A program made the translations under genes and the position numbers. The notes under the pieces were generated by a model, which was not told where the DNA came from, ran no database searches, and saw only the letters and a list, made by a program, of their open reading frames with translations. Positions 4,389 to 35,439 of a stretch of DNA of 64,000 bases are shown in pieces. Location: the NCBI GenBank assembly GCA_001315925.1, contig BBBF01000004.1, positions 1 through 64,000 of the forward strand, read 5' to 3'. Within the stretch, counting starts at the first letter, position 1. Every line of letters starts with the position of its first letter. Origin of the DNA: Thermocladium modestius JCM 10088. Lineage in GTDB: Archaea > Thermoproteota > Thermoprotei > Thermoproteales > Thermocladiaceae.

Positions 4389-5525
4389 TTATTCAGTTAT
4401 CTTCTCCTTCCTGGGCTTAAGCCTTATGAATAGGAAAACCCCCCATCAATATCAACGGAAGTATTGGCAGAACCACGGTGGAACCAACCATTATGCTCAT
4501 CAAGTAGAGTTCCGTCAAGGATGATAATATCCTAGTTGTGTTTAGGAATATCTGCCTATTGACTAGGTAATAAATCATCTTGTCCCGCTTCATGTAATTC
4601 CACGTGAATACATCTATTATTGGATAGATCAATGGCGAGGTCAGCGAGAATGAATATAGGTATATCAACGGCGAGACCCACATAAATGGAATCGAGATGG
4701 CCAAGGCCAGAGCCGCCAGCATTGGTAGCCTCACGGGATTCAGCTTCTTCACCAATTTATCCCTTACTATATACACCGATAGCATGGAGACTATGGATAA
4801 TGAATAATTGATTATGCTGAACGTGGTGTAATCGCCCTGGGCGTACTTATACAATATTATTGAATTTATATTTCCCAGTATATAATTAGCCCCCCCAGCT
4901 ATAAGGGATAAGGCGATGGTCGATAAACCGTACGATTTATCCACCACGTGCATTTTTATTGCCTTATTCATGTCGAATTTCTCGCTGGTGAAAGGCACGT
5001 TCTTAACCACGAAGAGAATTGATGTCAATATTGCAGTAGATGCCATGAAGAGGACCACATATCCATATCCGCGAAGCAGCGAGAGGATCGCTCCATAAAT
5101 CGCTGGCGAGGCTATTGAAGATATAACTCCCAAATACGCCGATCTGTTGAAGAATTTAAGCTTGTTATCCGTGTTGAAGAATATTATGTCCCAACCAGCC
5201 CAGTAGAATCCCTGCGCGATTCCGTAAACCGCCGCCAATTCGTACACGAACTCGAATGCCGACTTGTTCAATATGGCCAGGAGAAGGTAGAATAGTACAT
5301 ATAGGGAGATGCCTATCCTGTAATAAATCATGGACTCCTTTATTCTGCTGGAAATGAAGCCCACCATTAAATAGCCTACCAATATGAAAAATGAATTCAG
5401 AACCAAGAATATCAATGAATAGTAGATAGTAGATGAAACGTAGATGAACAACGCTATCAAGGGGGGGAGGAAATGCTATTCCCAAAGCCAAACAACCACG
5501 ATGCCAGCAAGAACCTATTATTCAT
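4389..5525 (-). CDS. MFS-type polytopic transporter (frameshifted)
   Basis: Hydrophobic protein of about 378 residues with 10 to 12 predicted membrane segments, organised as two halves with a cytoplasmic loop (VPFTSEKFDMNKAIKMH) in the middle, as in the major facilitator superfamily. Restoring one frame change at the G/C run near 5462 adds an N-terminal segment beginning MNNRFLLASWLFGFGNSISS at ATG 5525. Restoring another near 4440 gives a short charged tail ending at TAA 4389. The substrate is unknown. It sits between the aldehyde dehydrogenase and the first GH116 glycosidase on the same strand, so a sugar or sugar acid is plausible. Confidence 0.8.
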
Positions 5526-5645
5526 TTCCCATATCTTTGAATCAGTTGGTTAAACCCATTAATAAGCTTTATCTATATTCGTTGAAACAAATAATATGCT
5601 TCAAATAGCTCTATCTAGGCTCAAAATATAAATAAATATTTATCA

Positions 5646-8413: not shown

Positions 8414-8433
8414 ACTGGGAAAACCCCTATTGC

Positions 8434-8440
8434 TATTTAA
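8434..8440 (-). promoter_or_regulatory. TATA box for GH116 glycosidase
   Basis: TTAAATA on the minus strand, about 24 bases before ATG 8413. Confidence 0.6.
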
Positions 8441-8490
8441 GAATTATACTATTTATTTCATGTAAGTTGATACCTATTGATATATTCCAA

Positions 8491-8500
8491 AGTAATTTAA
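8491..8500 (+). promoter_or_regulatory. TATA-like box for hypothetical gene at 8522
   Basis: AGTAATTTAA centred 26 bases before ATG 8522; it selects this ATG over an out-of-frame one at 8511. Confidence 0.5.
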
Positions 8501-8521
8501 CCCACAACTTAATGAACGCAT

Positions 8522-9031
8522 ATGCTTCCGCTTTACAGGGTGGGAAAGAAGCTGTGGATAGAGGCCCACTTAATGGGCTTAGTGAACCCCATAAACAGGA
8601 TCTGGCTAGTGATGCCTTTTCAAGAGGATTGTCTAGTTGATGAGCCGCGCGAGGCTGTATTGCCCTACGATGAGGTGAAACGATTGTTCGCCGAGGTGAA
8701 ACTGGATGAATTGATAAGAAACGAGAAAAACGAGACACGGCTTACTTCGCTGGAGCACATGTACATACCGTTATACAATCCTGGACGATACATGGCCAGA
8801 ATAGGCGGTCAATTATCCGCGGTAACGAGACTTACCATAATGAAGAAAATACAAGAGGAAGTGCTACGCATGATGCCTAGTCATGTTCCTCCCCCCCTAA
8901 AGTGGGTACAGCTATCCATAGTAGGTAATGATGTGATCACGTGCGGCAGCAAAAACCCGAACCTAACATATATATTTAACAATGATGATAAAGCTAGAAT
9001 GGAAATAAAAAAGCTGATTTTTAAGCGATAA
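8522..9031 (+). CDS. Conserved-looking hypothetical protein
   Basis: A 169-residue protein I do not recognise. It is mixed alpha/beta, without membrane segments or cysteine clusters, and basic at both ends. The frame is intact through a C run at 8891-8897, so length there may still be off by one codon. A TATA-like box 26 bases upstream supports the start. It lies on the opposite strand between the GH116 gene and the solute-binding protein and converges with the latter, 15 bases between stops. No functional inference is justified beyond its location inside the sugar-use region. Confidence 0.6.
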   Translation: MLPLYRVGKKLWIEAHLMGLVNPINRIWLVMPFQEDCLVDEPREAVLPYDEVKRLFAEVKLDELIRNEKNETRLTSLEHMYIPLYNPGRYMARIGGQLSAVTRLTIMKKIQEEVLRMMPSHVPPPLKWVQLSIVGNDVITCGSKNPNLTYIFNNDDKARMEIKKLIFKR

Positions 9032-9046
9032 ATTAGCCTATTTCAC

Positions 9047-11209
9047 TCACCTACGACGCATCAACAATGCGACCACTGCCGCTATTATCACTATTACAAC
9101 TATTATTATGACGGCTATCGTAGTAGTGCTGGTGGTGGTTGGAGGCGGCACCGTAGTTGTGGTCGGCACGGTTGTAGTTGCAGTGGTGGTTGCAGTTGTA
9201 GTAGCTGTAGTAGTTGCAGTGACGGTAACCGTTGCCGGTGATGTTGTGGTGGTTGGAGGAGGCGTAGTGGTAGTAGTTACAGTAACGGGCTGGACGCTGG
9301 TCAACAGGGACCAATATGTTGGGCCGCTTATCTCTATCCCAGGTGACTCTGTCCAGACCCAGCTATTGCTGGGCGGGAAGCTGAAGTACTTCGTGTTGTA
9401 CCATATCTGGTCATACGGCGTGTCTAAGCTTATGAACCATGGATCGTGATTGGCCTCCCAGCCCCCCCACGTATAGACACAGTCCAGTATCTGGGGAACA
9501 GTGACCGCAGATGGAGGGCATATGCCGGGTTGACTGAATAGGAACCTAACGGTTCCGTTAGGCAGGGTGACCGCCCCCCCGTTCCAGTGAGTGACGTTTA
9601 TTGGATCTCCCTCGAAGTAACCGTTGACGGGGAAGAGGTCCGGTATTATTATGGAGAAGCCGGGTGGGCCGTAATTGTAGCCCAATGCATAATCATGTTC
9701 CTCGGTGTGCCATGCGGTTGGGAATTCGCTGGACGGCAATATGTTTATGGAGGTGGATATCCCGAACGAATTCAATTGAGACTCTATGTTCGTAAGCATG
9801 GCCATTAATTGAGGATTGGAGGCGGCACCGCTGTTTATCAATATAGTCAACGTAAACGGAGTACCTGATGGCGTGTACCACTGCCCGCTCTTCTCAGTGA
9901 AGCCCGCGGATTCAAGCAATTGTGCAGCCTTCGTCGTGTTGTACGTGTAGTAAATCAATGGATACCCCCCCTGTGCCTGCCAATACTCTATCATTCTCTG
10001 ATAGGAGTGGGGATTAACCGTTGGGTACACTATTGCATTATATGGAGTGGGCGGGCCATATGGTGGACCCGCTATGTCTACTGCCTCGGTGAAGTTTATT
10101 GCATATATCAATGCCTGCCTCACCGCGGTATCGTTTATGTATGGCCATAAGAAGTTGAAGTATAGAGTATCGCCCGGCGCGCCCGCGGTTAATGCGAAGT
10201 GCATGTTTGGATTCTGCTCCACCTTGGATGCTATGCTTGGTGGCAGGTTGCCGGAATAGAAGGATAACTGTCCAGTCTCGAGCGCCGGGTATAGTTGTGA
10301 GGTAGATGAGTATTGATATATCACTACGTAATCCACGTGTATATTATTTGCGTCCCAGTAGTATGGATTCTTAGCAAGTATTATCTCGGATGGAGTTATG
10401 TCAAACACGTAAAACGGGCCGTTCTGTGGAGGCGGGAACGTGAATTGAGGTATGTAGCTCTTGAACTTGGCGAACTCGACCTTTATGAATGAGCTGCCAT
10501 TGCTCTGCTCCTGGCTGGTGCCGTATCCGAAGTTAGCCGCATAGAGTATGTTCCAGTACTTAGTCAAGTTATCTACTAGTGGCTTCCATAATTGATAATT
10601 GATGAACATTCCCAATCCTCCATCGCTTGGGTAGTAGTAGGTCATGACGTTATAGTTCAATGACGTGGCATTATTTAGGACGGTTGCGTCCGGCGGAATC
10701 CATAGAATGCACGTGTAATTATTGACTATGGTCACATTTCCCAATGCATCGTAGAAGAGAGCTTGAATTATATTTTGAGCATATATGTCATAACAAGTAA
10801 AGGGCTGGCCATTACTCCAGCCGCTCTTCCTTAGATTTATGGTTATTTTAGCCCATCCAGCCAATGAGCCGTTTGTTATGTATTGCATGGTCCAATTCTG
10901 GGCCAGGTCAGGTATCCATGTTCCACTGCTCGCATTATATAAAGTTAGATATGCATAATTCAAGCCATACTGATGGGACCACGTATTGGCAAATACGTTT
11001 GGATTAAATGAGGAATTCCCAGTCAATGGAACTGTGGTTATTATAGCTGTGTATAATGTATTGGATGGAGACATTGGAGGCAATCCATTTGCTTGAGCCA
11101 TCGCTAATTGAGCCAGAAGCATCAACCCCCCCATAGCTATTATTGCCGCGGCGATTATAGAGGCACGCATTTCATTGCCATTTATGTGAATACTTTTGTG
11201 GATGCGCAT
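9047..11209 (-). CDS. ABC transporter solute-binding protein, family 5, membrane-anchored
   Basis: Intact 720-residue extracellular binding protein of the dipeptide/oligosaccharide (family 5) class. An N-terminal signal sequence (about residues 14-40) is followed by the two-lobed binding domain. Then comes a Thr/Pro/Val-rich linker of about 50 residues, likely O-glycosylated, and one C-terminal membrane helix ending in RRR. This anchor-plus-stalk layout is typical of crenarchaeal sugar and peptide binders. In several crenarchaea such systems import cello- or other oligosaccharides rather than peptides, which fits the glycosidases around it. It has its own promoter directly downstream of the permease/ATPase operon, so it can be made in excess over the other subunits. 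Confidence 0.92.
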   Translation of the reverse strand: MRIHKSIHINGNEMRASIIAAAIIAMGGLMLLAQLAMAQANGLPPMSPSNTLYTAIITTVPLTGNSSFNPNVFANTWSHQYGLNYAYLTLYNASSGTWIPDLAQNWTMQYITNGSLAGWAKITINLRKSGWSNGQPFTCYDIYAQNIIQALFYDALGNVTIVNNYTCILWIPPDATVLNNATSLNYNVMTYYYPSDGGLGMFINYQLWKPLVDNLTKYWNILYAANFGYGTSQEQSNGSSFIKVEFAKFKSYIPQFTFPPPQNGPFYVFDITPSEIILAKNPYYWDANNIHVDYVVIYQYSSTSQLYPALETGQLSFYSGNLPPSIASKVEQNPNMHFALTAGAPGDTLYFNFLWPYINDTAVRQALIYAINFTEAVDIAGPPYGPPTPYNAIVYPTVNPHSYQRMIEYWQAQGGYPLIYYTYNTTKAAQLLESAGFTEKSGQWYTPSGTPFTLTILINSGAASNPQLMAMLTNIESQLNSFGISTSINILPSSEFPTAWHTEEHDYALGYNYGPPGFSIIIPDLFPVNGYFEGDPINVTHWNGGAVTLPNGTVRFLFSQPGICPPSAVTVPQILDCVYTWGGWEANHDPWFISLDTPYDQIWYNTKYFSFPPSNSWVWTESPGIEISGPTYWSLLTSVQPVTVTTTTTPPPTTTTSPATVTVTATTTATTTATTTATTTVPTTTTVPPPTTTSTTTIAVIIIVVIVIIAAVVALLMRRR

Positions 11210-11230
11210 CGGAATAGATTACAGAAGGGC

Positions 11231-11238
11231 TATTTAAG
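11231..11238 (-). promoter_or_regulatory. TATA box for solute-binding protein
   Basis: CTTAAATA on the minus strand, 26 bases before ATG 11209. This supports the first Met rather than the internal Met 13 residues later. Confidence 0.65.
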
Positions 11239-11295
11239 TTTTTATATAAATATTCCATAAGAAGATAATATATAGGTTTATTCACTAATGGATGG

Positions 11296-12094
11296 TCATA
11301 ATATCTTTGGTGCTGCGTTTATCAACTTCACCGTGTACTCCGATCTGGGATGCTGTATAACGTCGTCTATAGGCCCATCCTCCACTATGTTTCCTCTATA
11401 CATAACTACGACTCGCCCTGAGCCTACCTTGAGCAGAAATAGACGGGCAAGCGCCATATCGTGGGTAATGAATGCAACGCTAACATTTAGTTGCCTTACT
11501 AACCTCGTCAAAACATTTATTATCATTAATCTCAACGTGGAGTCAATCATGGTAGCCGGTTCATCTGCAACTATTAGAAGTGGGTCGGGGGGCTAATGCC
11601 CTCGCTATGGAAACTCTCTGGCGCTGACCCCCCCGCTCAGCTGATGGGGGGGGTATTTGTTCAAGTATTCACTGGGTGGAGTCAGTCCAACCATGTTGAG
11701 CAATTGATTCGCCTTTTCTATCTTGGCATCGTTGAACCACCTTCGTATGGGCGACATCAATTGATCCTTTATGGTAAGCGATGGATCCAGCGAGGAATAC
11801 GGATCCTGTGGAACCCATTGAACGCTTCTCCTGAACTCCCAATACCTATGCTTTATTCTATACACATCTGTTCCCTTGAATAAAACCCTGCCGGTGGTCG
11901 GTCTCTGAAGCCCTAATATAACCCTTCCAAGCGTTGTCTTCCCGGCGCCGCTCTCCCCAACTATTGCTACGGCCTCCCCCCTGCCGTATTTCCAGGTTAA
12001 CGGAATCCAGCGCCTTTATTATCCTGCTCCCGAATAATCCCTTTCGTTCGGAGAAATAAACGCCAACGTTTTCCAGCTTAATTAGTTCGCTCAT
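11296..12094 (-). CDS. ABC transporter ATPase, OppF/DppF-like (frameshifted)
   Basis: Second ATPase of the importer, about 265 residues when repaired. Walker A, reconstructed as VGESGAGKTT, is destroyed by frame changes near 11970-11990. The Q-loop region (VQWVPQDPYSSLDPS) is intact. The signature motif YPHQLSGGQRQR is spoiled by two over-long runs: 7 C for 5 in the Tyr-Pro-His codons and 7 G for 5 in the Gly-Gly codons near 11635. Walker B is DEPATMID and the switch His is in FITHDMA. The ATG overlaps the 3' end of the partner ATPase by 17 bases, so both are translated together. It couples ATP hydrolysis to transport at the inner face. Confidence 0.9.
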
Positions 12095-13068
12095 ACAAGT
12101 GACACCTCACCGAGGTATTATTTACCATCACGTAGTTTGGAACCTCGTATTTGCACCTGTCCATGCGATGAGGACAGCGAGGCCAGAAACTACACCCAGT
12201 TATGTTCTCCCCTATCTGAGCTATTTCATGTAATTCCACTATATCGCTGAGCTTCGTATTCATGGTTGGCGTCGACGATATCAACGACATCGTATATGGA
12301 TGTTTTGGTTCATGAATCACATCGGTCATCGGCCCATATTCAACTATATTTCCATCATACATAACTGCTATTTTATTTGCTACTCTTGGCACCACCGTTA
12401 TGTCATGGGTTATAAATAACACAGTCAATCCTAGCTTCCTATTGAGCTCCTTTATAGTATCCAATATGCTGGACTGAGTGACCACATCCAATGCGGAGGT
12501 TGGCTCGTCCATAATCACTATCTCCGGGTCCAACAAGATCGCCAACGCTATCATTATCCTTTGCTTCATTCCCCCCCCACTCAGTTGATGGGGGGGGTAG
12601 AGCCTTAACGTTCTATGCGGATCCAACCGCATGAGCGATAATAATTCCTCCGCCTTCTTGATAACCTCGCCCTTATCTGCTATGCCGTGGGCCTTAGCGG
12701 TATCTATGAAGTGATCCGCTATCCTCATCGTGGGATTCAATACGTTCTGGCTGGCCTGTGGTACCATGGATAGCTTCACCCACCTATACCTCTTGTTGAA
12801 TTCCGAGAGGGGCATTTTCATTATATCGTCGTCCATTATTATGGATCCCTTAACAATGGATGGGGGGCTTTATCATCCTCATCATGGCCATTGCAAGCGT
12901 GGTTTTGCCCGACCCGCTTTCCCCCCCCACTATTCCGATTACATCTCCCTTGCTCACGCTGAGCGTTACTCCCTTTAATGCTTTGACCTTTATATTATTG
13001 GGCATTACATACTCCACTTCTAGATCTTTCACATCCATAATTGACATAATCTTAGCTCCTATAAGCAA
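12078..13068 (-). CDS. ABC transporter ATPase, OppD/DppD-like (frameshifted)
   Basis: First ATPase of the importer, about 330 residues. Walker A reads GIVGGESGSGKTT with one Gly too many because of an 8-base G run. The signature reads YPPHQLSGGGMKQR with one extra Pro and one extra Gly, again from over-long runs that happened to keep frame. Walker B is IVIMDEPTSALD, followed by FITHDITVV. The C-terminal third has the Cys-containing oligopeptide-transporter extension (FWPRCPHRMDRCKYEVPN), which often binds an iron-sulphur cluster. One frame change lies near 12865. Alternative starts are 13068 and 13047; the purine-rich GGAG before 13047 favours the second. Confidence 0.9.
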
Positions 13069-13108
13069 TGATTTGTATTAATAAGCCTTACTCAATATAA
13101 CTAACGAA

Positions 13109-13300
13109 CTATGATCTACGTGCATCCATTATTATATATATTATAAATACAGATAACATAGCTATGACCAATAGATCCATATAGAGGGAAGAACTATTTC
13201 CTATGTCAAATGGAAGGACCAATAACGCTAGCACTAAGAAAATGACCGATAAAGTATAGGCAACCCTAGATATTGATGGACTTATCCTGACGCGAAGCAA
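13109..13300 (-). CDS. Small two-helix membrane protein in ABC operon
   Basis: Candidate of 63 residues with two hydrophobic helices (about residues 14-30 and 38-56) and a basic tail ending ARRS. A TTG start lies 6 bases after the permease stop codon and the frame ends before the OppD-like gene, so it fits the operon spacing. I do not recognise a family. It could be an accessory subunit of the permease or a detached extra helix pair. The rare start codon and short length leave doubt. Confidence 0.45.
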   Translation of the reverse strand: MLRVRISPSISRVAYTLSVIFLVLALLVLPFDIGNSSSLYMDLLVIAMLSVFIIYIIMDARRS

Positions 13301-13306
13301 CGTGGA

Positions 13307-14207
13307 TCACACCTTTCTCAGCCTTGGATTAACCACCTCATCTATTCCATATGCTAACTCTATCAGTCCTACCATAAATAACGTAACGAATAGCGTCGGA
13401 AATATGAAGTACCATATCGCATTGGTCCCATACGCCGCACCAAGGGATAGCGCATTGCTTATCATGAATCCCCCAATTATTGGATGTATATGGCATTAAT
13501 CCAAGATAGAATAATCCAACCGTGGCATATATCGCACCCTCCACATTTAATATTAGATTGATCCATACAAACGGTATCAGCTGGGGGGGCATCACTTCCT
13601 TGAACATTATGTAGCTCCAACCCAAGCCAAGGACCTTAGACACCTCTATGTACGGCAATTGCTTTATTGAGAGGACTTGGGATCTGACCGCCCTAGCCAA
13701 TCCAGTCCAACCCGTTATGCTGAGGACCCCCCCCGCCAGGACGAGTGGATTTGTAGTCTTTATCATTGTGGCTATCATTATCACCAACAAGAGACTGGGA
13801 AGCGTTAGCAAAGTATCGTTTATCCACATTATTATGTTATCAGCTATTCCCCCAATATAACCTGATACCAATCCAACTATCAATCCTATCACCGTGGTGT
13901 AGATGCCCGCCAAGAAGCTGGTCTCCAATATAAATGGAGCGCCCCCTATTATATCGGCCAACGTGCTTTGCCCCACGTAATCGGTTCCAAACCAGTAAGC
14001 CGGAGGCCAAAGCCTGGGAGGCCTGAGCACGTTGATGGGAGACTCCCTAAGCGTTATCAACGGAAGCACAAACTGAATCACTGTAGCGAGCAGTATGTAA
14101 AAAATGGTAACCCATAATCCAAACGCGGCGGATTTATTCTTGGTGAAGGACTTATATGCATCTATCAACGATTTAATTCTATTCCTAGTCCCAAGTCGCA
14201 CCTCCAT
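13307..14207 (-). CDS. ABC transporter permease, DppC-like (frameshifted)
   Basis: Inner-membrane permease of about 300 residues with six predicted helices. The cytoplasmic coupling region contains GWTGLARAVRSQVLSIKQLP, matching the EAA loop of family-5 permeases. One extra G near 13475 hides the true C-terminus, which continues NNWGFMISNALSLGAAYG and ends NPRLRKV at TGA 13307. The ATG directly abuts the TGA of the DppB-like gene (TGAATG), so the two permeases are translated in tandem. It forms the transport channel with that partner. Confidence 0.9.
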
Positions 14208-15255
14208 TCAATGCCTCACCCTGGGATCAAGCAGTGAATACGTTAAGTCAGCAATTATCATCCCAATAACTATCGCAAATACTATTATTATTAGTATGCC
14301 CATTGCCAATGGCCAATCATTATTCGACAAAGCCGTGGTGTAAAGCTCCCCAATGCCTGGATACGAGAACGTGGTCTCTACAAACACGGTGCCTCCAAAA
14401 GAAAAACCGAGCGCTATAATAATGGATGTATATAATGGCAGGAGCGAATTGCGTCCAACATAATTATGCGCTATCCAACCGCTGGGCAATCCCCTCATTT
14501 CTGCATATGAGACATAGTCCTCGCCCAATTGAGATATGGTGTTTCCCCGCATAGATAATGCCCAATGCCCAAATGTCGCAAACGTTAACGTGAAAATGGG
14601 CAGGAATGCATGATATAACACGCTCGCTATGAATGGCAGGTTAAACCCGATCACAACGCCGGCGGAGTAAGCTCCGGCCACTGGGAACCAATGCAGGTAA
14701 AAGCCCAAGAACAGCAAGAAAATGGCAGCATACACATATATCGGTATTGATCGTTTGACCGTGATGAATTGAGTCACTATTTGATCAATGGGCTTACCCC
14801 CTATTATACGCCATGAGTTGTCCTAGATATATACCTATCAAAAAGCTCAATATGTTTGCCGTAACCACGATGAAGAGGGTCCACGGGAGTCTCTCCGCTA
14901 TCAGCTTGGTGACTGGCTCGGAATAGAGAATCGATATCCCCCATGTTTCCGTGGAACATATTATCAATATACATGAATACCTCTATCAATGGATTGCCAT
15001 GAGGCATTATCGAGTTAACATACATTAGTAACTCCTTATACTCCTGCGTGGATAGGGACGACGGTATCACCGTGGACGCAGCCCTGCTTCCACCTATTCC
15101 AACCCCAGATGTCGGCATCAATCCAAACGATTGCATTATGTAATTGACGGGAGATAGGGGGGGGATAATTCGAAAAGCAAGTAACTTATCACCAATGCAA
15201 AGAGTATTGTTGATATTGCTATTCCTATTCTTCTGGCCAAATATGGAACCTTCAT
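14208..15255 (-). CDS. ABC transporter permease, DppB-like (frameshifted)
   Basis: First gene of the importer operon, about 345 residues. The N-terminus MKVPYLARRIGIAI is typical of DppB proteins and starts at ATG 15255 right below a TATA box. The frame changes at the run near 15162, near 14940 and near 14795 are all short indels. The periplasmic insertion between helices 1 and 2 is long (about 120 residues), as in archaeal dipeptide-class permeases. The coupling loop YAEMRGLPSGWIAHNYVGR is intact. Confidence 0.9.
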
Positions 15256-15277
15256 GTAATATTTAATTTCATTGAAA

Positions 15278-15288
15278 TATAAAAATCT
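15278..15288 (-). promoter_or_regulatory. TATA box for ABC importer operon
   Basis: GATTTTTATAT on the minus strand, centred 28 bases before ATG 15255. Confidence 0.65.
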
Positions 15289-15324
15289 TGTCCTATTTAT
15301 ATAATGCTAAAATTGAACTCCAAA

Positions 15325-15498
15325 TTACATTACTAACAATGAATATTGATCTAAAAAGCCAATGGGCAGGATTTCTTCCCAAATACTCCTGACTTGTGCA
15401 TCCTTAAGATAACTATTCCACAATTTAGACCCATTTCCAGCTCTAAGAAGATGAGGTCCATTGACGATATCAAGCCGTTTAGCTACTTCATAGGGCAT
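15325..15498 (-). CDS. Small 57-residue protein, possibly a remnant
   Basis: A short complete frame in the 327-base gap between the importer operon and the alpha-mannosidase. It begins MPYEVAKRLDIVNGPHLL and its middle reads GSKLWNSYLKDAQVRSIWEE. That middle recalls the C-terminal W-x-x-Y/F-L-x-D/E motif of P-loop sulfotransferases, so it may be a shortened relative, but this is only a motif resemblance. A well-placed TATA box 26 bases before ATG argues that it is transcribed. No G/C run interrupts it. Confidence 0.5.
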   Translation of the reverse strand: MPYEVAKRLDIVNGPHLLRAGNGSKLWNSYLKDAQVRSIWEEILPIGFLDQYSLLVM

Positions 15499-15518
15499 GC
15501 TAAAAATATAATTGCAGA

Positions 15519-15528
15519 TATTTATTCT
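15519..15528 (-). promoter_or_regulatory. TATA box for 57-residue ORF
   Basis: GAATAAATAT on the minus strand, centre 26 bases from ATG 15498. Confidence 0.5.
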
Positions 15529-15551
15529 ACGACATGGGAAATTTATAATAT

Positions 15552-15560
15552 CATTTAAAA
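15552..15560 (+). promoter_or_regulatory. TATA box for GH38 alpha-mannosidase
   Basis: CATTTAAAA centred 27 bases before ATG 15583; it is divergent from, and only 25 bases away from, the opposite-strand box. Confidence 0.6.
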
Positions 15561-15582
15561 ACCAAATATACGTAGGGCCTTC

Positions 15583-18533
15583 ATGCGTGACGTAAATGAA
15601 TTAAGCAGTAGGCTGGCATTCATATTCGCCAATTCCTTGTCAAGCATTAAATACCTTAAATGGAATGAATCAAGCCAGGCTAATACATACACTATATCAA
15701 TCACATCCGGCGATCAAGATGAACTGGCCGTCATTGGGTATTCGGGATCTGCATTGGTAAGGCTAAATGGACGGCCGTACTTTGCACTGGATGGATACCA
15801 TAATGAAATACCATTGCCGCCGGGCAACAACGAGATAACGGCCGAGTTTCAACCATATCAAGCATTCGGCGAGCGCGTGAAAATAGACCCAGGAACCCCA
15901 GTGTTGATTCATGTTAATAGGACGGCCCGTGAGCTGTGGAGCTACGGAAACGTACTACTGGAGCTGGCCAACGGCGTGGATGATGCGTATATAAAGGAGA
16001 GAATCCTAAACTTACTGGGCAATGCCCTCAGCATAAGTAGATTCCAAGGCATTACTCGGGATCAATTATTGGTGGCAGCGGGCCTCAACAAGAAATTCCC
16101 CCAGCACTTAACCAGCTTCATAGATGGGTACGACCTACAGACCAAGATAGATGAAGGAAGGTTCGAGGAGGCGCTAAATTACTTGAGGAATGGACTCAAG
16201 TCGCTGCGAGAGGAAATAGGCAAGCGGGGGGGACAGGTTGTGGGCGTGGGGGGGCATGCCACATAGATGCTGCATGGCTTTGGAGCTTCGACGAGACGAA
16301 GCGGAAAATAGCTAGGACGTTCTCCACCGTAGTGAAGTTGATGAAGGAGCACGACTTTCACTTCATACAGAGCTCCGCCATGTATTATAAGTGGTTACAC
16401 GACTATTATCCAGCTCTCTTCAATGAGGTGAAGAGACTGGTGGAGGAGGCAGGTGGGAATTAGGAGCTGGATGGATCGAGTTCGATGCTAACATAACCTC
16501 TGGGGAGTCAATTGTCCGCCAGCTATTGTACTCCCAGCGGTACTTCCTGGAAACATTCGGAAAAATCGCCGAAGTGCTGTGGTTGCCCGACACGTTCGGT
16601 TTCTCGGCTCAATTGCCTCAATTGATGAGGCTTGCCGGAATTAAATTATTCGCGACCCATAAGGTGTTTTGGAACGACACGAATAAGTTCCCGTACTCCC
16701 TGTTTGAGTGGGTCGGCATAGATGGATCGTCGATACCATCCATAGCGTTCGGAAATGGAGGGGGGGGAGGATACGGCTCCACGTTCAACGTCAATGAATT
16801 GCTGCAGCAATGGAGGGAGTGGAGGGACAAGGATAAACCAATGCTCTACGCCTTCGGGTACGGGGATGGAGGGGGGAGGACCGACTGATGAGATGCTTAT
16901 CAGGGCCAAGGCAGTCGACGAAGCCCCCCCGCTCCTGCCGCGGGTCAGCCTGGGCGGGATCACTGAAGCCATTAAGCATGCAAGCCCAGTCAATAGGTGG
17001 AGAGGAGAGCTGTACTTGGAGAATCACAGGGGGGGGTCTATACGTCCCACTCCAAGATGAAGTACCTACACCGCAGGGCCGAGTTTTCCTTGAGGGATGC
17101 GGAGATTTGGTCGACGTTGGCCGAGTCCTATGATGGGGGGGAAACGATAAAGAGTCTGTGGATGACAATCATGAAGAACGAGTTCCACGATGTGCTGCCG
17201 GGCTCCGCCATAAACGATGTATATAGGGAGGTGTATCCGGAGATCGAGAAGGTGATAAAGGACGCGGAGGCCATGGCTAGGAGCGCCATTATGAAAATAG
17301 CGGGCGATGGGGGGGCCGGCTGCATTGCATTTAATTCGCTTTCATGGGATAGGGAGGACTATGCCGTGGTCGAGGAGGAGCTGCCCGGCTCGCAGAAGGT
17401 GATGGAGGGTTACCTGGTTAGGTTGAGGGCGCCGTCCATGGGATATGCCGAGTGCGTGCCCCTCGATCCAGGCGGGGGGGGAGTCGCTGCGCATAGGATG
17501 GGGGGGGATCGCTTTGTGCTGGAAAACAGGTATCTGAGGGCAGTGATAAATGATAAAGGCATGCTTGAGTCGTTGTTCGATAAGGAGAACGGCGTGGAGT
17601 CGCTTCGGAACGCCAGTAATAGAATAATTGCATACGAGAACATACCTGGATGGGCCGATGCTTGGAACATAGAGCCATCATTTGAGGAGACCTACATGGA
17701 AATACATGGAAGCAATGGAGGGATAAGCGAGGATGGCCCGCTTAGGGCTTGCGTTGATTTTGATATGAATTTTGGAAACTCCGTAATGAAGCAATCAATC
17801 TGCATGTACGCCGGCAAGCGAAGGATTGACTTTAAGACAACGCTTAGGCTGGTGGACAGGGAGCTATTGCTTAAGTCGTGGTTCGACTTCAACCTAAACA
17901 CGGATGCCGCGACGTTCGAGATACCGTATGGTGTGTTGCGGAGGGAAACCACGACTAACACCACGTGGAATAGGGCCATGTTTGAGGTGCCCATGCAGAA
18001 GTGGCTGGATGTTTCTCAGGACGATTATGGAGTTGCCGTGCTAAATGATAGTAAGTACGGCGCGACGGTCAGGGAGTCCAAGGTAGGTTTATCGCTGGCG
18101 AAGTCACCCCCCCTGTACCCAGACCCATTGACTGACATGGAGTATAATACCTTCACGTACTCCATCTACCCCACCCAGGCGATTGGTTTAGCTCGGGAGT
18201 ATTCAGGGCGGCATACGAATTGAATTCCCCCCTCAAAATAATCAAGGGAAGAGCTGGGAGGAGGTCGTTCGTGGAAGTGAGCAATAGCGAATTAATAGTG
18301 GAGTCCATTAAGGCATCAGAGGAGGGGGGGGCAATGTCGTGGTCAGGCTATATAATGTGAGGAATAGCAGGGGGGGAAGGGGGGGGTGGGTGAAGCTGTG
18401 GTTCAATCCCCGCTCCGCTAGGGCCGTTGATATATTGGAAATGAATGATGTCGGGAAACCCATCGATATATCAGGCGATAAGGTAGTGTTCGATTATGGA
18501 CCTCATGAAATAATCACTCTATTATTGAATTGA
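15583..18533 (+). CDS. GH38 alpha-mannosidase (frameshifted)
   Basis: About 980 residues, the usual size of Sulfolobus-type class II alpha-mannosidases, which release mannose from alpha-mannosides. N-terminal beta domain (residues 1-220), then the Zn-binding motif reconstructed as GHAHIDAAWLW near 16250, the nucleophile Asp in LPDTFGFSAQLPQL, the second metal segment in KNEFHDVLPGSA, and the long C-terminal beta domain ending FDYGPHEIITLLLN. At least five frame changes are needed: near 16250, 16465, 16880, 17035 and between 18225 and 18340. No signal peptide, so it acts in the cytoplasm. It ends 12 bases inside the convergent GH36 gene. Mannosidase plus galactosidase suggests galactomannan or glycoprotein-derived glycans as food. 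Confidence 0.92.
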
Positions 18534-20743: not shown

Positions 20744-21729
20744 ATGAATTACATTGGAATAGATATAGGGGGCCACCAACATCAGAATAGGCATCATTGA
20801 TGAGAATCAAGAACTGATCGCCAAGCAAAAGCTCTTCAAGCCACAAATACGAAATGAATACGATGTTGCAAATATAATTCTGGACTCAATTAATAAAATA
20901 GACGCCGGCAATTTGGGGGGAGTAGGCATAGGAGCGGCTGGCTTGTTGGACCTAGAGAGCGGCGATGTTTCGTTCTCATCGAACATGCCCATTCATAGAA
21001 TAAAGCTGGCAGAGCCCTTGATAAGGAGCCTTCATCTACCGGTTGTTGTATTAAACGATGCATCGGCAGCCGCATACGGCGAATATCTAGCTAGGAAGGA
21101 TGACGTGCAAGACCTTGCCTATATAAGCATAGGCACAGGAATAGGCGCTGGAATAATAATAGACGGCGACATATTGATGGGACGGAATGGTAATGCACAT
21201 GAGGCGGGATGCATTATAGTAGACTTTAATTCAAAGGCAAGGTGTAGCTGCGGCGGATTGGGTCATTGGGAAGCATTTGCATCGGGAACCAATATGCCCA
21301 AGATATTCAGGGAGTACGTATCGTCTCGGAAAGCTGATCAATCAGCCAATCGATTGCTCATCTCAATGGATGAATCCAAGATAAGTGCCGAGGATATATT
21401 CGGTTTGGCCGCCAATGGCGACGCAATTGCCAGTGATTTCATAGATTATATAATGAAGATTAATACAGCGGGACTGGCATCCATAATAAATCTATTCGAT
21501 CCTCAATTGATCGTGCTGGGGGGGGCTCCGTTGCTCTGAATAATAGGGACGCATTCATTAGGGGGGCATAAACAAATACATCAATTCATTTGTTACAGTG
21601 CATGAATATCGCATAGATTTTGCTAAGTATGGCGATGACGCGGGAATTATAGGAGCCGCCGCCGCAATTCGATCGCCAAGTCCAAGGCTTTCCAAATTAA
21701 TCAATAAATACATGGAAAAGTATGGTTGA
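20744..21729 (+). CDS. ROK family sugar kinase (frameshifted)
   Basis: About 328 residues. The N-terminal phosphate loop reads YIGIDIGATNIRIG after removing one extra G near 20768. The catalytic Asp is in LNDASAAAYGE, the adenine-side loop is GTGIGAGII, and the Zn-binding ROK signature is CSCGGLGHWEAFASG. The C-terminal VLGGAVALNN is broken by runs near 21520 and 21565. ROK kinases phosphorylate glucose, N-acetylglucosamine or N-acetylmannosamine. Immediately convergent with the GlmS-like gene and near MupG-like, LmbE-like and nagA genes, it is most likely an amino-sugar kinase, though glucokinase is not excluded. Confidence 0.92.
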
Positions 21730-21737
21730 TTCCAGGC

Positions 21738-23543
21738 TCACGCCGTCACTACTTTGGCTAAGTTCCTTGGATTATCCACGTCGATGTCCCGTGCAACGCC
21801 CAATCTATACGCTATTAGTTGTATTACGGGCGAGTAAATTATGGGTATCAATAGCTTATTCACGTTTTGCTTTACCAATATTAAATGATCGCTCGTCCCT
21901 CTAACCTTGTTTGACTGGGAAATAGTTATCACGTACCCACCGCGATGCCACACCTCGCTGAGCACGGGGGGGCCCATATCCTCATCCACCTCGCCCCCCC
22001 CGGCATTATGGCAAGAACGGGGGGGAACTTGCCCGATATCAGAGTCATAGGTCCATGCTTGAACTCCCTGAAGCTCATGGATTCAGAGTGTATTTGAGCT
22101 GCTTCCTTGAATTTTAGCGCAGCCTCCATGGCAAGCGGCAATCCTATTGGTCCTCCTGATATTACGTACATGTCGGAGAAACCGGCCACATCCTTCGCTA
22201 TATTCTTTATCTTATCTACATTATCATTTAGCTGAGTTGAGATGATCTCGCTGGCTTTCTTCAATTCTGATCTGGCCCAATCCAATTCCTCCCTCGACAT
22301 TGCTGCCATCTGAAGAAGCACAGCCAATGATGCAGTGAATGACTTGGTGGCCGGCACGGCTATCTCTGGGCCAGCGCCTATTGGAAGGTATACGTTTGAT
22401 TCCCTCATCAATGTCGATCCCAGCCTATTAACTATGCCAAGTATCACCGCGCCCCCTTCTCTTGGCTGCCCTGATGGATCGTATTATGTCCGCGGATTCC
22501 CCCCCGGACTGACTTATGGCTATTATCAAGGTCCCTGGTTCCACGTCGTTTATTTCCTCGTAGAGGAACTCGCCCGCGGGGACGCTCTCCGAATGAAGCC
22601 TAGCCAATGTACTTAAGTAATACTTACCTATGAGGGCTGAGTGATAGGACGTGCCTGACCCCCCCAACAGCATTATATTGTGGGCCTTGCTGATCAATAA
22701 CCAAGCATCGTTCAAATACTCCTCCTGCAATGCATTCACTGCCCTGGCCAGCGACTCCGGTATATCGTATATCTCCTTCAACATGAAGTGCCTGAATGAT
22801 CCTTTATTGAGCTCCGTGTTAGTGATGATTGCCTTATGCGGCTTTAGTTCGACCTTGCTTAAATTGGAGGCATTCACGAATTGCAGTTCATCCATGCCTA
22901 GCACCGCTATTTGGCCAGTGGATAGGGAATACAGTTGCAATTGATCCATTGGTAGCGCTTGTTCCTCTGATGAAATGAATTTCTCAGTGTCGTTGATGGC
23001 TATTATGAGTGGGTTTCCCATGCTTAATGCGTATATTTTCTTTTCAGTTCTATTTATTAACGAAATAGTGTAATAACCCGATATTGATTGTAATGACTGT
23101 AATGCGCCTATCATGTCCTTACCAGCGTTCAATTCGTTCTCTATTAAGTGAACAATCAACTCCGCGTCCGTCCTCGATGAAAAGCTGTGGGTATCCTCAA
23201 GCTCTTTTCTAAGCTCGTAATAATTGGAGATTACGCCATCCATCACCAATGCCAAATTACCCGTGCAATCTATGAAGGGATGGGTGTTCTCGTAAACGGG
23301 CCTTCCATGTGTGGCCGACCTAACGTGACCCAGACCTATGTAGCCTGGCATATCATCTATGCTTGACTTATCCATTAATTGATCGACGCGAACTGCGTCT
23401 TTCCTAACTATGAATTCATTATTATCCAGCGTAACTATCCCAGTTCCATCAATTCCCCCCCTATGAACCAACCTCTCCAGTCCAGCCCTTATTATCGGTG
23501 CAACAGGCCTAGTGCTCGAAATGAGGCCAAAGATCCCGCCCAT
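21738..23543 (-). CDS. GlmS-like SIS protein with degenerate glutaminase domain (frameshifted)
   Basis: About 600 residues in the order of glutamine:fructose-6-phosphate aminotransferase: an N-terminal Ntn glutaminase-like domain, then two SIS sugar-phosphate domains, ending DNPRNLAKVVTA. The glutaminase site is altered. The protein starts MGGIFG instead of MCGIFG, so the nucleophilic Cys is Gly. The canonical HTRWATHG reads HVRSATHG, and the oxyanion HNG reads MDG. The SIS half keeps GSGTSYHSALIGKY and ISQSGGESADI. I infer an ammonia-producing glucosamine-6-phosphate deaminase/isomerase rather than a synthetic enzyme, consistent with nagA in the region. A TATA box places transcription exactly at ATG 23543. 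Frame changes lie near 22445 and 21970. Confidence 0.88.
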
Positions 23544-23563
23544 TGGCCTATTCTCCTCTTTCT

Positions 23564-23573
23564 TCTTAAAATA
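23564..23573 (-). promoter_or_regulatory. TATA box for GlmS-like gene
   Basis: TATTTTAAGA on the minus strand; the 26-base spacing to ATG 23543 rules out the in-frame Met 39 bases further upstream. Confidence 0.6.
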
Positions 23574-23687
23574 CTTGCGCAAAATACTTGATGTAATAAT
23601 CTATTTACTTTTTAGACATGTAATTAAAAATGATCCTTAATGGCACGTGAATGACTATTGCTGCATCGAGATCTATTTATATAAATG

Positions 23688-23696: not shown

Positions 23697-23718
23697 CTTG
23701 GATAAAAAGGGTCAATTA

Positions 23719-24794
23719 ATGAAAAAACAAGTAGGCCTTATAGCTCAACCATGGCGCAAAGATAAAATAGATGAGTTCAAGCACATATTAAAGGAGGCAA
23801 GCGAGTTGGGCTTCACTGAGCTTTGGTCCGGAATAGATAAGGACTCCGTGAATGAGGTTAAGGCATTGGCGGCCACCGCCAATGAGCTTGGATATTACTA
23901 TTTCGTGGACATAAACCCGGTAGTCCTGAGAAACCTGGACGCAAGCCCGACTGATCTATCTATCTTCAAGAAAATCGGGGGGGTACAAGGCGTGCGGGCA
24001 GATTATGGCTTCAACCTGGAGCAATTGGCAGCCATGGCTAATAACGACTTGGGGGGGTTGAAGGTTGAGCTGAACGCAAGCGTTTTTCCAATAGATGACT
24101 TGGATGACTTGCTTAAGATGATCAAAAACACAGAAAATCTATTGGCAAGCCATGATTTTTATCCATGGCAGCACACTGGGATAGCCCTCGACGATGCGAT
24201 TAAGAAATCCAAGGCATTTCATGATAGAGGCATGCCCGTTGCTATTTTCGTATCCGTCAAGAACGGCGAGAGGACCACGGTGGAACATCTAAGATACTTG
24301 GATATAGGGGGTATCAGCGAACATAATTTTCAATACGCGGGTAATAGATAGGGTTTTGATCGGGGGACCCATTGCCTCCGCTGGATGATATGAAGAAAGT
24401 GGCCGAGGCCAAGAAGCACACCAAGATAAGGGTAAAGGCTTATCCTGGATTAACCGAGGAGGAGGCGAAGGTATTTAATAGGGATTTCCATGATGTTAGA
24501 GTCAAGGAGACTACGGTCGGGTTAACGGCCGGAGGCTCAAACAACATCACGCCCAGGAACATTGTAAGGCGTGTAAGGGGATCGGTTACCGTGATAAACA
24601 AAAACCCGGATTACATACAAGTATGGGTATTCAAAGATGATGCCCCGCCTGATCAGCGGTTCAACGTAATAGGCGAGGTGGTGGAGGAGGACATGGAAAT
24701 TGTGGATAGAATAGCTGAGAGGACCAGGGGGGGCACCTTTGCATCACTCAATAGAGAGGACCTGCCGCCGGTCGTATTTGAATTGATTAATTGA
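23719..24794 (+). CDS. MupG/DUF871-like TIM-barrel protein (frameshifted)
   Basis: About 355 residues matching the DUF871 family, whose characterised bacterial member MupG is a 6-phospho-N-acetylmuramidase. Seen here: YYFVDINPVVLRNL, GVRADYGF, LKVELNASV, LASHDFYPWQHTGI, AIFVSVKNGERTTVEH and a C-terminal small domain with SVTVINKNPDYIQVW. The FYP-x-x-x-TG segment and the downstream domain are typical. Indels lie between 24347 and 24371. Archaea have no murein, so the substrate may be a phosphorylated amino-sugar disaccharide scavenged from bacteria, or something else entirely. The neighbours (ROK kinase and glutaminase-dead GlmS-like protein, divergent) support an amino-sugar role. Confidence 0.82.
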
Positions 24795-29944: not shown

Positions 29945-32011
29945 ATGGTAACTTACAAATCCGATGACCCGATTGCAAATGGGGGGGTTCCCCTGGGCGG
30001 AATAGGGGGGCGGGAAAGGTGGAGATAAACAATAAGGGAAAGATGGTGAATATAACCATAGCAAATAATTGGTCATTTCCAATAAAGGAGATGCAGGGTT
30101 TCCACATATTCATAAAGCCAGACGATGCGGATCCGTTTTTCTTGCAGGATGAATTGAATTTCATTAATTTGAATAAATTTTCCACCAAGTTGATATTCGA
30201 GGGCAGATATCCGTTTGTGAGAATTAGAGGGGGGGCACCGTTAATGCTATGATGGAGGCTTTTTCTCCAATAATACCCTCCGACGTAGTTAATTCGTCGC
30301 TGCCCGCGATTGGTATTTCCATACGGGTTAGCGGAAGCCGAGGCGGGATAGTTGGCATTTCCTTTTCTAACATATGCGGCATAAGCAAGATAGGCAGATA
30401 CAACGAGCAGGTAAGAAATGGGATAAGAGCCAAGAACGCCAAGAGTAACGAATACGATCCCTACAATGGAGAGATAACCCTGATAGCAGAATCGCCCAGC
30501 AACATAGTGGCCCAGTATAACTTCCAAGTGGATAGAAAGCTTGAAAAGGCGTTAAACCTGCATAGGGTTATAGAGGATGAAAGGCCGTGGATGGCGATAA
30601 TTGAGGGAAGGGAATTAAGGGCGGATTCAGGTGAATCCAGGGGGGGATCCTATTATTCCCCCCCGGCGGGCATGGTGTTGAGCAGGTATGAGGGAGGGGG
30701 GGATGACGTTAAATTCGTCTTCTCGTGGTTCTTCAACAGACCTTGGGTTTATTATCCGTATAGGCATTACTACTCGAATTACTTTTCGAGCTCCATGGAG
30801 GTGGCGGATTACTTCATGGATAACTTCGACGAATTTAGAAGAAAGACCTTGAACTGGCAGGAAAACCTCATAGATCCAAGCCTTCCGGAGTGGTTAAGGG
30901 ATGCAGTGATAAATAGCACGTATATTCTCTCCTCTAGCACATGGTTGGATGAAAAAGGAAGATTCTCCCTCTATGAAGCGCCGGAGGTGGGGGGGCCCAT
31001 GCTAGGCACTATAGGTGGGGTCACCTACGAGGCCGGTTCATTGCCGGTAGTATTGATGTTCCCGGAGCTGGAGAAATCATTTCTTAAAATGCTGGCCGCC
31101 AACATGAGGGAGAACGGGTATATACCGCATGATCTTGGAACGTTCTCGCTGGATGCGCCCTCGGATGGAACAACTGCGCCCCCGGAGTGGAAGGATACAA
31201 ACACAACATTCATTTTATTAATATATAGATATTACCTTAGAACCAAGGACTTGGATTTCTTGAAGGAAATGTACCCATATATGTTGAAGGCAATGCAGTG
31301 GATCTCAAGCCAAGATAGGGATGGAGATGGATTGCCTGAATTAGATGGATCATGCGATACAGGATATGATTGTGTCCCCCCCATGGAAGGCAATTCAAGC
31401 TATACTTCGTCTCTTTTCATTGCGGCAGCTCTAGCCTGATCGACGTATCGAAGATACTAAACGATGATAAAACTACGGAGGAGTTATCGGCGTTACTGGT
31501 TAGGGCAAGGGATTCATTTCGTCGCCTATTCGATGGGAGAAAATTCATCGCTTGGACTGGAAAGCCTCAACATCATAATGCATCATTTGCCGCCCAGATA
31601 TTCGGGGAGTGGTGGGCGTTTATATTAGGAATGGAGGATATAGTAGAACGAAGCAAGATAAGCCTTGCCCTGGATACGATACGGGAAGTAAATGGTAATT
31701 CCTCAACGTACTGCACACCCAACATGGCTAGGGAGGATGGAGGGCCAGTCGACATAGATAGTCAGCTGACGTCATCATGGCCAAGGCTGGTCTTCAGTCT
31801 ATCTGCATTGGCATATTCTATGGGAAAGACGGAGTGGCTCAACATAGCGAAGAAGGAATGGGATAACTTGGTGAGGCTTGGTCTGGCGTGGAACCATCCT
31901 TCCATAATACATGGAGACGATGGACAACCGGATAAGCCGTTCCTGGATCACTACATAGGAAGCGCTGCATTATGGAGCTTCACGTATAAATACGCCAGCG
32001 AAAGAACATGA
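29945..32011 (+). CDS. GH116 (DUF608)-like glycosidase, third copy (frameshifted)
   Basis: About 680 residues, most like the 25.8-kb copy. The N-terminus repairs to GVPLGGIGAGKVEINN; the beta domain contains VVNSSLPAIGISIRVSG; the helical domain has SQDRDGDGLPELDGSCDTGYD and SSYTSSLFIAAALA. The terminal block reads HGDDGQPDKPFLDHYIGSAA, again without the Glu/Arg clamp of canonical GH116. Frame breaks lie near 29980-30010, 30235, and 31380-31440. Its TGA overlaps the ATG of the LmbE-like deacetylase (ATGA). It is divergent from malA. Confidence 0.8.
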
Positions 32012-32700
32012 AGATACTGTACGTTTCTCCGCATCCGGATGATGAATGCGATAACGCCGGCGGCACGTTGACCATGTTATCAAGGCATAACGATATATAT
32101 GTTTTTTACCTAACCGATGGACGGCTTGGATCCCCAAACCCGGCGGAGAGGGGGGGCGATGAACTGGCGCGCATTAGGAAGGATGAAGCCTTGAAAGGGT
32201 TAACGGTTCTCGGCATCGATCAAAGCAATGCATATTTCTTCAATTACCCAGACGGCGCGCTCAGCAAGTTCATCTATGATGGAGTGAAAACCATAATGCC
32301 AGTTCTAAAGCGGATCTCCCCGGATATAGTTTTTTATCCCTCAACGCTGGATATCCACCCGGATCACTGGGCTGCTGGAAAGATAATTGTCGCTGCCATC
32401 GGCAAATCAAGGCTAAATCCGGGCCAGTTATCCTACCTGAATTGGGAGCCCAGACCATCCATTGATGTCGGCATCATGTTGAAGTACATAAAATGGAAGA
32501 CGCTCCGCAAAAAAGCAATTTATGTAAGGGTGACTGATTTCAAGGATATAAAATTCAAATGCATGGAGAAACACGAATCACAGCTGAGATATCTTAACGA
32601 GAGCTATATCGATCGATTCTTCAATGCGGATTACGAGAGGTTTTACATAGAAAGGAAGACTCCCAATATGGATCTGCTGGCATCCCTGCTCCATGCATAG
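32008..32700 (+). CDS. LmbE/PIG-L family N-deacetylase
   Basis: Intact 230-residue protein. The Zn motif is SPHPDDECDNAGG at residues 6-18, the RxxE-like helix follows (ARIRKDEALKGL), and the third metal ligand is in DIHPDHWAAGK. Family members remove N-acetyl groups from GlcNAc-containing molecules such as GlcNAc-PI, diacetylchitobiose or mycothiol precursors. The overlap with the GH116-like gene upstream means the two are translationally coupled, so a deacetylase acting on the same acetylated glycan is likely. The exact substrate is open. Confidence 0.9.
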   Translation: MKILYVSPHPDDECDNAGGTLTMLSRHNDIYVFYLTDGRLGSPNPAERGGDELARIRKDEALKGLTVLGIDQSNAYFFNYPDGALSKFIYDGVKTIMPVLKRISPDIVFYPSTLDIHPDHWAAGKIIVAAIGKSRLNPGQLSYLNWEPRPSIDVGIMLKYIKWKTLRKKAIYVRVTDFKDIKFKCMEKHESQLRYLNESYIDRFFNADYERFYIERKTPNMDLLASLLHA

Positions 32701-34273: not shown

Positions 34274-35439
34274 CTACGTGGCGGAATACACGTTCTCCCC
34301 CCCATTTATGAATGAGCGGACCACCCTGTACTTATCATCCAGCGCCACGAAATCAGCCGCACAGCCCGGTCTCAAGCATCCCACTTCCCGAAGCCCAAGC
34401 GAGAGCTGGTACCGCGGTTGCCATGCTAATCGCCGTGGTGGGCTTGATTCCCAAAGAGATCATGTTCCGCACAGCCCTATCCAGCGTTAACGTGCTGCCG
34501 GCAAGCGTTCCATCCGGTAAGGTGGCCCTGCCATTGGCAACCGTCACCCTCAACCCTCCCAATTCGTACTCCCCATCGCCGAGTCCAGCGGCGGCTATCG
34601 CATCTGTGACCAAGACAATCCTATGAGAACCAGCGTACCTCACAGCGAATAGCACTGCCTCTGGCCTCAAGTGGATTAAGTCCACTATTAGCTCCAGGTA
34701 CACGTTCTCGTTATCCATCAACGCCATGACAGTGCCCGGGTCCCTGTGATGTATCCCCTTCATGGCGTCGAAAAGATGAGTGGCCCGGCTTGCTCCAAGG
34801 GCTACGGCCCTAGTCGTGGTTTCATAATCCGCGTTGGTGTGGCCCACGCTGACGACGACGCCCTGCGAGACAGCGTACTGTATCAACTCCATCGCACCTT
34901 TCAACTCAGGAGCAACATGCACGAGAAGAGGCATGTCGCCCGCCAAGGCCAAGTACTGCTTGAGCTCGTCCAAGTTGGGAACGCGTATGACCTCTGGATT
35001 CTGGGCACCTCGCCGCTCCGGGTTTATGTACGGGCCCTCCAATCCAATTCCCACAGCCTTGGCGCCCCGCAGCTCCCTTCGGCCACTGATTATCAGGCCA
35101 AGAACTCTAAGTATGTTCTCATGCCGCGCGGAGACTAGGGTGGGCACGAATGAGGTCACCCCCCCGAACCTAGCCAAGTTGACTGATATCTCATTCAACT
35201 CCTTCACGCTCGCGGACCTAGTCACATCGAACCCGCAACAGCCATGTATGTGGGTATCAATGTATCCAGGCGCAATGGATAAACCCCCTCAAATCCACGT
35301 CGCTGGGCATCCCTCCGGCATCGCGCACCTCCGCTATTACTCCACGATGGATGATGATGGATACATCATGAATTGATTGATAGGGAGTGTAAATCGTGTC
35401 TACCTGACTACCTTCTCGGCCATACGTATTAATGATCAC
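34274..35439 (-). CDS. nagA: N-acetylglucosamine-6-phosphate deacetylase (frameshifted)
   Basis: About 388 residues. Reconstructed APGYIDTHIHG supplies the metal His pair; LEGPYINPERRGAQ has the metal Glu; VSVGHTNADY, THLFDAMKG and the catalytic Asp in LVTDAIAAAG follow, with GTLAGSTLTLDRAV near the end. The enzyme hydrolyses GlcNAc-6-phosphate to glucosamine-6-phosphate and acetate. Frame breaks lie near 35265 and 34383. A GTG start at 35439 lies about 22 bases below a TATA box. With the ROK kinase (GlcNAc to GlcNAc-6-P) and GlmS-like protein (GlcN-6-P to Fru-6-P) it completes an amino-sugar catabolic set. Confidence 0.92.

Follow-up and report, generated by a model that had tools for sequence, protein, structure and literature searches.

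A GlmS-like clade of Thermoproteota with a dismantled glutaminase site and a probable role in glucosamine-6-phosphate deamination

The gene, its broken frame and its neighbours

The window, by which we mean the whole stretch of 64,000 nucleotides analysed from Thermocladium modestius JCM 10088, carries a GlmS-like gene whose glutaminase domain appears dead (Table 1); it is called the Gly2 gene here. An earlier, sequence-only reading of this DNA had placed the gene correctly without naming its strand, which is minus. Translation from position 23543 yields the motifs MGGIFG, HVRSATHG and MDG, and Pfam recognises GATase_6/GATase_7 and SIS domains in the product. Upstream of the gene lie TATTTTAA and an AGGAG motif. 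The SIS domains had been described as intact, which holds for their residues and fails for the frame, the gene being split into three open reading frames in the assembly. Because of the frame break, the fragments were scored separately against the GlmS model TIGR01135 (272 and 100 bits).

Table 1. Features of the Gly2 gene and its neighbours in the window
Feature	Coordinates	Strand	Basis
GlmS-like gene with dead glutaminase domain (putative)	21738..23543	-	ORFs 22428-23582, 21929-22447, 21738-21989
Start codon and Gly2 (replaces GlmS nucleophile Cys1)	23538..23543	-	translation, alignment
HVRSATHG, residues 73-80 (Trp74 gate to Ser, Arg73 kept)	23304..23327	-	translation, alignment
MDG, residues 101-103 (oxyanion Asn98 to Asp)	23235..23243	-	translation, alignment
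C-terminal tail NPRNLAKVVTA with Lys603 equivalent	21741..21773	-	ORF 21738-21989; invariant in clade
nagA, GlcNAc-6-P deacetylase, frame-broken	34353..35279	-	TIGR00221 232 bits, cut-off 226
MupG/GH170-like 6-phospho-glycosidase, frame-broken	23698..24794	+	PF19200 138 bits
ROK sugar kinase fragment	20913..21539	+	PF00480; closest NCBIfam model ATP-dependent glucokinase, below cut-off
GH38 alpha-mannosidase, frame-broken	15583..18223	+	59% identical to L189 GH38
PIG-L/LmbE family deacetylase	32008..32700	+	PF02585 93 bits

The frame breaks of the gene lie close to runs of 7-8 G or C bases. Between positions 1 and 36000 of the window there are 122 G/C runs of 7-8 bases against 32 of 5-6 bases, and a stretch from a genome of the same genus has none of 7-8 bases. 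The stretched runs are an artefact of base calling or assembly and, since the breaks track this assembly-wide homopolymer artefact, they are not evidence of a pseudogene. The same pattern, with G/C runs stretched to 7-8 bases and few of 4-6, is seen over the whole window (1-64000) and at three other loci of the genome (L002, L003 and L005); most reading frames of the assembly are broken in this way, and apparent pseudogenes here call for caution. Additionally, G+C content changes from 0.476 (window 1-36000) to 0.596 (36000-64000), as in an island or a chimeric contig.

Six orthologues from the same family as the window's genome are intact (593-600 aa, 57-60% identity) and carry the same three substitutions. 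A local pseudogene or sequencing error was ruled out, since 48-49 sequences share the changes and the breaks follow the G/C runs. It is thus scarcely credible that the gene is an ordinary GlmS altered by sequencing error or local decay: its frame is indeed broken and intact orthologues do score above the GlmS model cut-off, but such orthologues are found in many genomes.

The Gly2 gene and the MupG/GH170-like gene share an intergenic region, and four Sulfolobaceae-like (f32) genomes have MupG-family genes at distances of 2.4-13 kb from their own Gly2 gene. We know of no murein in archaea. Positions 5621-32700 of the window form a glycan-degradation island, which contains GH116 genes, GH38, GH31 and a raffinose-synthase-like (GH36-type) gene, together with the PIG-L deacetylase, a family 5 solute-binding protein and ABC genes.

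A clade with a replaced glutaminase site

A profile built from 15 members was searched in 398 Thermoproteota genomes, and its matches were clearly split, with 49 proteins at 755-956 bits and the next at 630 bits and lower. The alignment also holds 49 sequences; it omits G282, which is among the 49 matches, and adds G078 from an earlier search. Residues were counted in these 49 clade members and compared with 30 archaeal and 80 other GlmS sequences (more than half of the 30 come from clade-bearing genomes). Other phyla were covered by one scan for close relatives, the best 80 of which were canonical except for one bacterial sequence, whose F at position 1 probably reflects faulty trimming.

The three changes in glutaminase motifs claimed by the sequence-only reading are real and fixed across the clade. 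Numbered as in E. coli, the readable members all have Gly at position 1 (48/48), position 74 is Tyr, Ser or Phe in 49/49 and Trp in none, and position 98 is Asp in 49/49; in addition, position 400 is Pro in 49/49. Canonical archaeal GlmS proteins have Cys1, Trp74, Asn98 and Ala400 in 30/30. Orthologues with Cys2, named beforehand as the refuting outcome, were looked for, and Gly2 with Asp98 was found throughout the clade. With this degree of conservation in the alignment, chance is excluded as the source of the three changes. The best explanation of the substitutions is that the N-terminal domain cannot hydrolyse glutamine, as Cys1, Asn98 and the Trp74 gate are all gone.

The start of the protein was compared across the clade as well. 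We read Gly as residue 2 because all 48 readable members have ATG, GTG or TTG immediately ahead of Gly-Gly, and 34 of them have no upstream in-frame start; an upstream start giving another N-terminus was rejected by this comparison. A TATA box had been invoked to fix the start, and although Gly2 proved correct, that argument is unneeded and weak by itself.

The isomerase residues Ser347, Gln348, Ser349, Lys485, Glu488, His504 and Lys603 are invariant (49/49). Arg73, Gly99 and Asp123, which are glutamine ligands in E. coli GlmS structures, are likewise present in 49/49.

In a quick tree, the clade occupies one side of a single branch (SH-aLRT 100). In a tree of the SIS part, it pairs with canonical GlmS as its sister group (support 100/98) and is separate from SIS-only GlmD/NagB-II-like proteins, the SIS-only rows being archaeal relatives and not characterised enzymes. 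This placement contradicts the suggestion that the protein is an evolutionary intermediate leading to GlmD. A canonical GlmS copy with VCGI and HTRWATHG is also present in the window's genome, and nearly all clade genomes carry such a separate Cys-type GlmS; in G356 (L170), a genome said to be 97% complete, the Gly2 protein is present and the genome search found no canonical GlmS. On sequence comparison, these proteins make up an ancient GlmS-like clade of Thermoproteota, present in many thermophilic archaea, in which loss of the glutaminase site is fixed. Literature searches on archaeal GlmS paralogues, crenarchaeal deaminases and inactive glutaminase domains, with subscription papers mostly outside their coverage, returned nothing on the clade, and this silence is weak evidence of novelty.

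The clade shares with GlmS (TIGR01135; E. coli 2j6h, 3ooj) the two-domain architecture, the SIS catalytic residues and the Lys603 tail. It differs from GlmS in the replacement of Cys1, Asn98 and Trp74, in forming a separate clade that coexists with canonical GlmS, and in its linkage to nagA. Two intact members score 495 bits (L118, 4730-6517) and 481 bits (L126, 9495-11324) on TIGR01135, for which the cut-off is 418, and full-length members score better on this model than on those of NagB-II or GlmD (for L118, 145 bits against a cut-off of 430 and 102 against 580, respectively). A structure search with a predicted model returned the GlmS fold, the best match being the C1A mutant of E. coli GlmS; the model places the domains relative to each other with little certainty (full-length TM about 0.5). 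NagB-II (NF046059, SO3506; 8eol) and GlmD (NF041128; 2cb0, 2dec) have no glutaminase domain, whereas the Gly2 protein has one. They use SIS chemistry without glutamine, as is presumed for the clade along with the same reaction, and NagB-II/GlmD-like SIS-only genes stand beside nagA in G157 and G076, as Gly2 genes do elsewhere. NagB-I (TIGR00502) belongs to an unrelated family that presumably acts at the same step after NagA. The clade should probably not be filed as GlmS, NagB-II or GlmD, its sequence being GlmS-like and its predicted action NagB-II-like. Identity with the Sulfolobus GlcN-6-P 4-epimerase, which we take to be ST2245, is unlikely to judge by the map of G228, where the Gly2 gene is found at 2.55 Mb and canonical GlmS at 2.19 Mb.

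Linkage and co-occurrence with amino-sugar catabolism genes

By neighbour clustering and gap measurement, nagA is the immediate neighbour of the Gly2 gene in 16 of 49 loci, where the nagA products of L126 and L193 pass TIGR00221 and the remaining neighbours were assigned by sequence grouping. Six of these pairs are tandem (gaps 2-10 bp), seven divergent and three convergent, and they fall in five families (f5, f16, f25, f32 and f51). The neighbours of the Gly2 gene in family f5 also include PTS enzyme I together with IIA, IIB and IIC-IID of the mannose PTS family. In the L126 region (5426-17234), genes for PTS enzyme I and for mannose-family IIA, IIB and a fused IIC-IID accompany nagA, and an SIS_2 and a ceramidase-like protein are encoded there as well. 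In G002, which is of the same genus as the window, genes for PTS enzyme I and IID are found close to the Gly2 gene, as is nagA. A PTS has been noted in Thermofilum pendens (PMC2678158). BcrAD/BadFG-family GlcNAc-kinase-like genes adjoin the Gly2 gene in three loci, and one of them, run against NCBIfam, was below the kinase cut-off. Two loci of family f32 (L182 and L189) combine nagA, the Gly2 gene and a GH38 alpha-mannosidase. An amino-sugar catabolic setting, first proposed from the nagA and sugar kinase genes in the window, therefore extends far beyond it.

Linkage to glmM/glmU-type genes was not seen among the clade loci, where the linked genes are nagA, PTS genes and glycosidases. This bears on the proposal that the proteins are ammonia-dependent GlcN-6-P synthases, in which the SIS domain would carry out its chemistry in the direction of synthesis, using free NH4+ in place of glutamine. 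The isomerase residues are all kept, the reaction is reversible in principle and G356 shows no canonical GlmS, but the gene linkage and the canonical Cys-type GlmS in nearly all clade genomes argue against it, and we regard it as quite unlikely.

A second alternative is a deaminase or isomerase for GalN-6-P or ManN-6-P, or a sugar-phosphate epimerase. Bacterial mannose-family PTS also carry galactosamine, as in the aga system, and the change of Ala400 to Pro, with further clade-specific SIS changes, could alter specificity. Its partner, however, is a NagA-type deacetylase above the TIGR00221 cut-off, and the sugar-contact residues match GlmS, so that another amino sugar is an improbable substrate, if slightly less so than ammonia-dependent synthesis is an improbable reaction.

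nagA is also associated with the Gly2 gene across genomes, being present in 38/50 Gly2 genomes and 30/348 others (Fisher 4e-24, a value that ignores shared ancestry). No nagA was detectable in 12/50 Gly2 genomes. The contrast recurs inside families f1, f2 and f32, where nagA and the Gly2 gene occur together in some genera and are both missing from others. G383 is a nominal exception, yet a frame-split clade gene sits close to its nagA. On contig C5 of that genome (L237, 1-9000), a Gly2-type gene is split between two frames, and a pair of nagA copies and an SIS-only gene are nearby.

NagB (TIGR00502) was found in 0/50 Gly2 genomes searched, in a search whose bacterial controls did match, and scored above cut-off in seven archaeal genomes with NagA and no Gly2 protein. 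Either NagB or an SIS-only candidate, the latter classed by open-frame length, occurs in 11/38 genomes with both NagA and the Gly2 protein versus 21/26 with NagA only among those searched (Fisher 9e-5). Because alternatives are present in only 11 of the 38, about 27 genomes have the Gly2 protein as their sole visible candidate for the step after NagA. About 13 Gly2 genomes also hold SIS-only proteins able in principle to carry out deamination, and in G157 the SIS-only gene, not the Gly2 gene, directly adjoins nagA.

Proposed reaction and the retained glutaminase-like domain

Adjacency to nagA, the PTS and GlcNAc-kinase-like genes and the kept isomerase residues make a catabolic glucosamine-6-phosphate deaminase the best reading of the clade. 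We consider this function probable, the reaction, its direction and the exact sugar being drawn from gene context. In the proposed pathway, GlcNAc-6-P would be supplied either by the PTS during uptake or by a kinase once glycans have been hydrolysed, and NagA would deacetylate it to GlcN-6-P. The SIS domain would then open the ring (His504, Lys603) and isomerise the opened sugar (Glu488), and hydrolysis of the C2 imine would give Fru-6-P and free NH3. These steps, from ring opening through 1,2-isomerisation to imine hydrolysis, retrace the established chemistry of GlmS backwards. With the glutaminase domain dead, no ammonia would be delivered for synthesis, and the N-terminal domain would be retained as a structural or ligand-binding part.

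Constraint on this domain was compared with that on the rest of the protein. From 42 columns near-invariant in canonical glutaminase domains, the clade keeps 14 and loses 5; in the rest of the protein it keeps 31 of 48 such columns and loses 4. Mean identity within the clade is 42% in the glutaminase-like domain versus 51% in the SIS part, and for the canonical copies of the same genomes the values are 59% and 57%. Omega for the dead domain is 0.07-0.09 between close clade pairs. These sequence measures indicate that one constraint on the domain is gone and that purifying selection is still acting on it.

Deamination alone does not explain why a dead domain of 240 residues is kept under selection. 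The domain may persist as a sensor or as a structural or ligand-binding part. One tentative possibility is an amino-acid sensor, which would bind glutamine or a related compound via Arg73 and Asp123 and couple nitrogen status to the deaminase; the pseudo-glutaminase might then conceivably be the allosteric domain of a catabolic enzyme. A related proposal drops catalysis altogether and makes the protein an idle regulator, which would combine an SIS part with amino-acid binding, respond to GlcN-6-P and glutamine and exert its effect on other proteins. The invariant glutamine ligands and the low omega of the dead domain would suit such a role, but a mere sensor would have no need of the invariant catalytic residues Lys485, Glu488, His504 and Lys603, and no DNA-binding domain is present, which makes it very unlikely.

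Loss of the glutaminase domain was seen in only one of the clade cases, G011 (L135, 9845-10873), where the SIS region is open (342 aa) and shares 97.6% identity with the full-length protein of G017; this natural loss speaks for the deaminase reading. A search there for a remnant of the glutaminase domain found none. Its SIS part has an omega of 0.21, calculated from just 19 changes, a number that cannot establish constraint, and this SIS-only gene may be a decaying one.

Since the intact members tested score above the equivalog cut-off of TIGR01135, automated pipelines would label them GlmS, and genomes of the clade would appear to hold two synthases. If the deaminase reading is true, that label would be corrected, the GlcN-6-P deaminase would be identified for many Crenarchaeota that have nagA and lack NagB, and GlcN-6-P deamination, a central reaction, would have a third architecture, beside NagB and the SIS-only NagB-II/GlmD. 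The clade would also offer an uncomplicated example from nature of an amidotransferase that has kept a dead donor domain under selection, and the non-catalytic role of such a domain would thereby be open to direct test.
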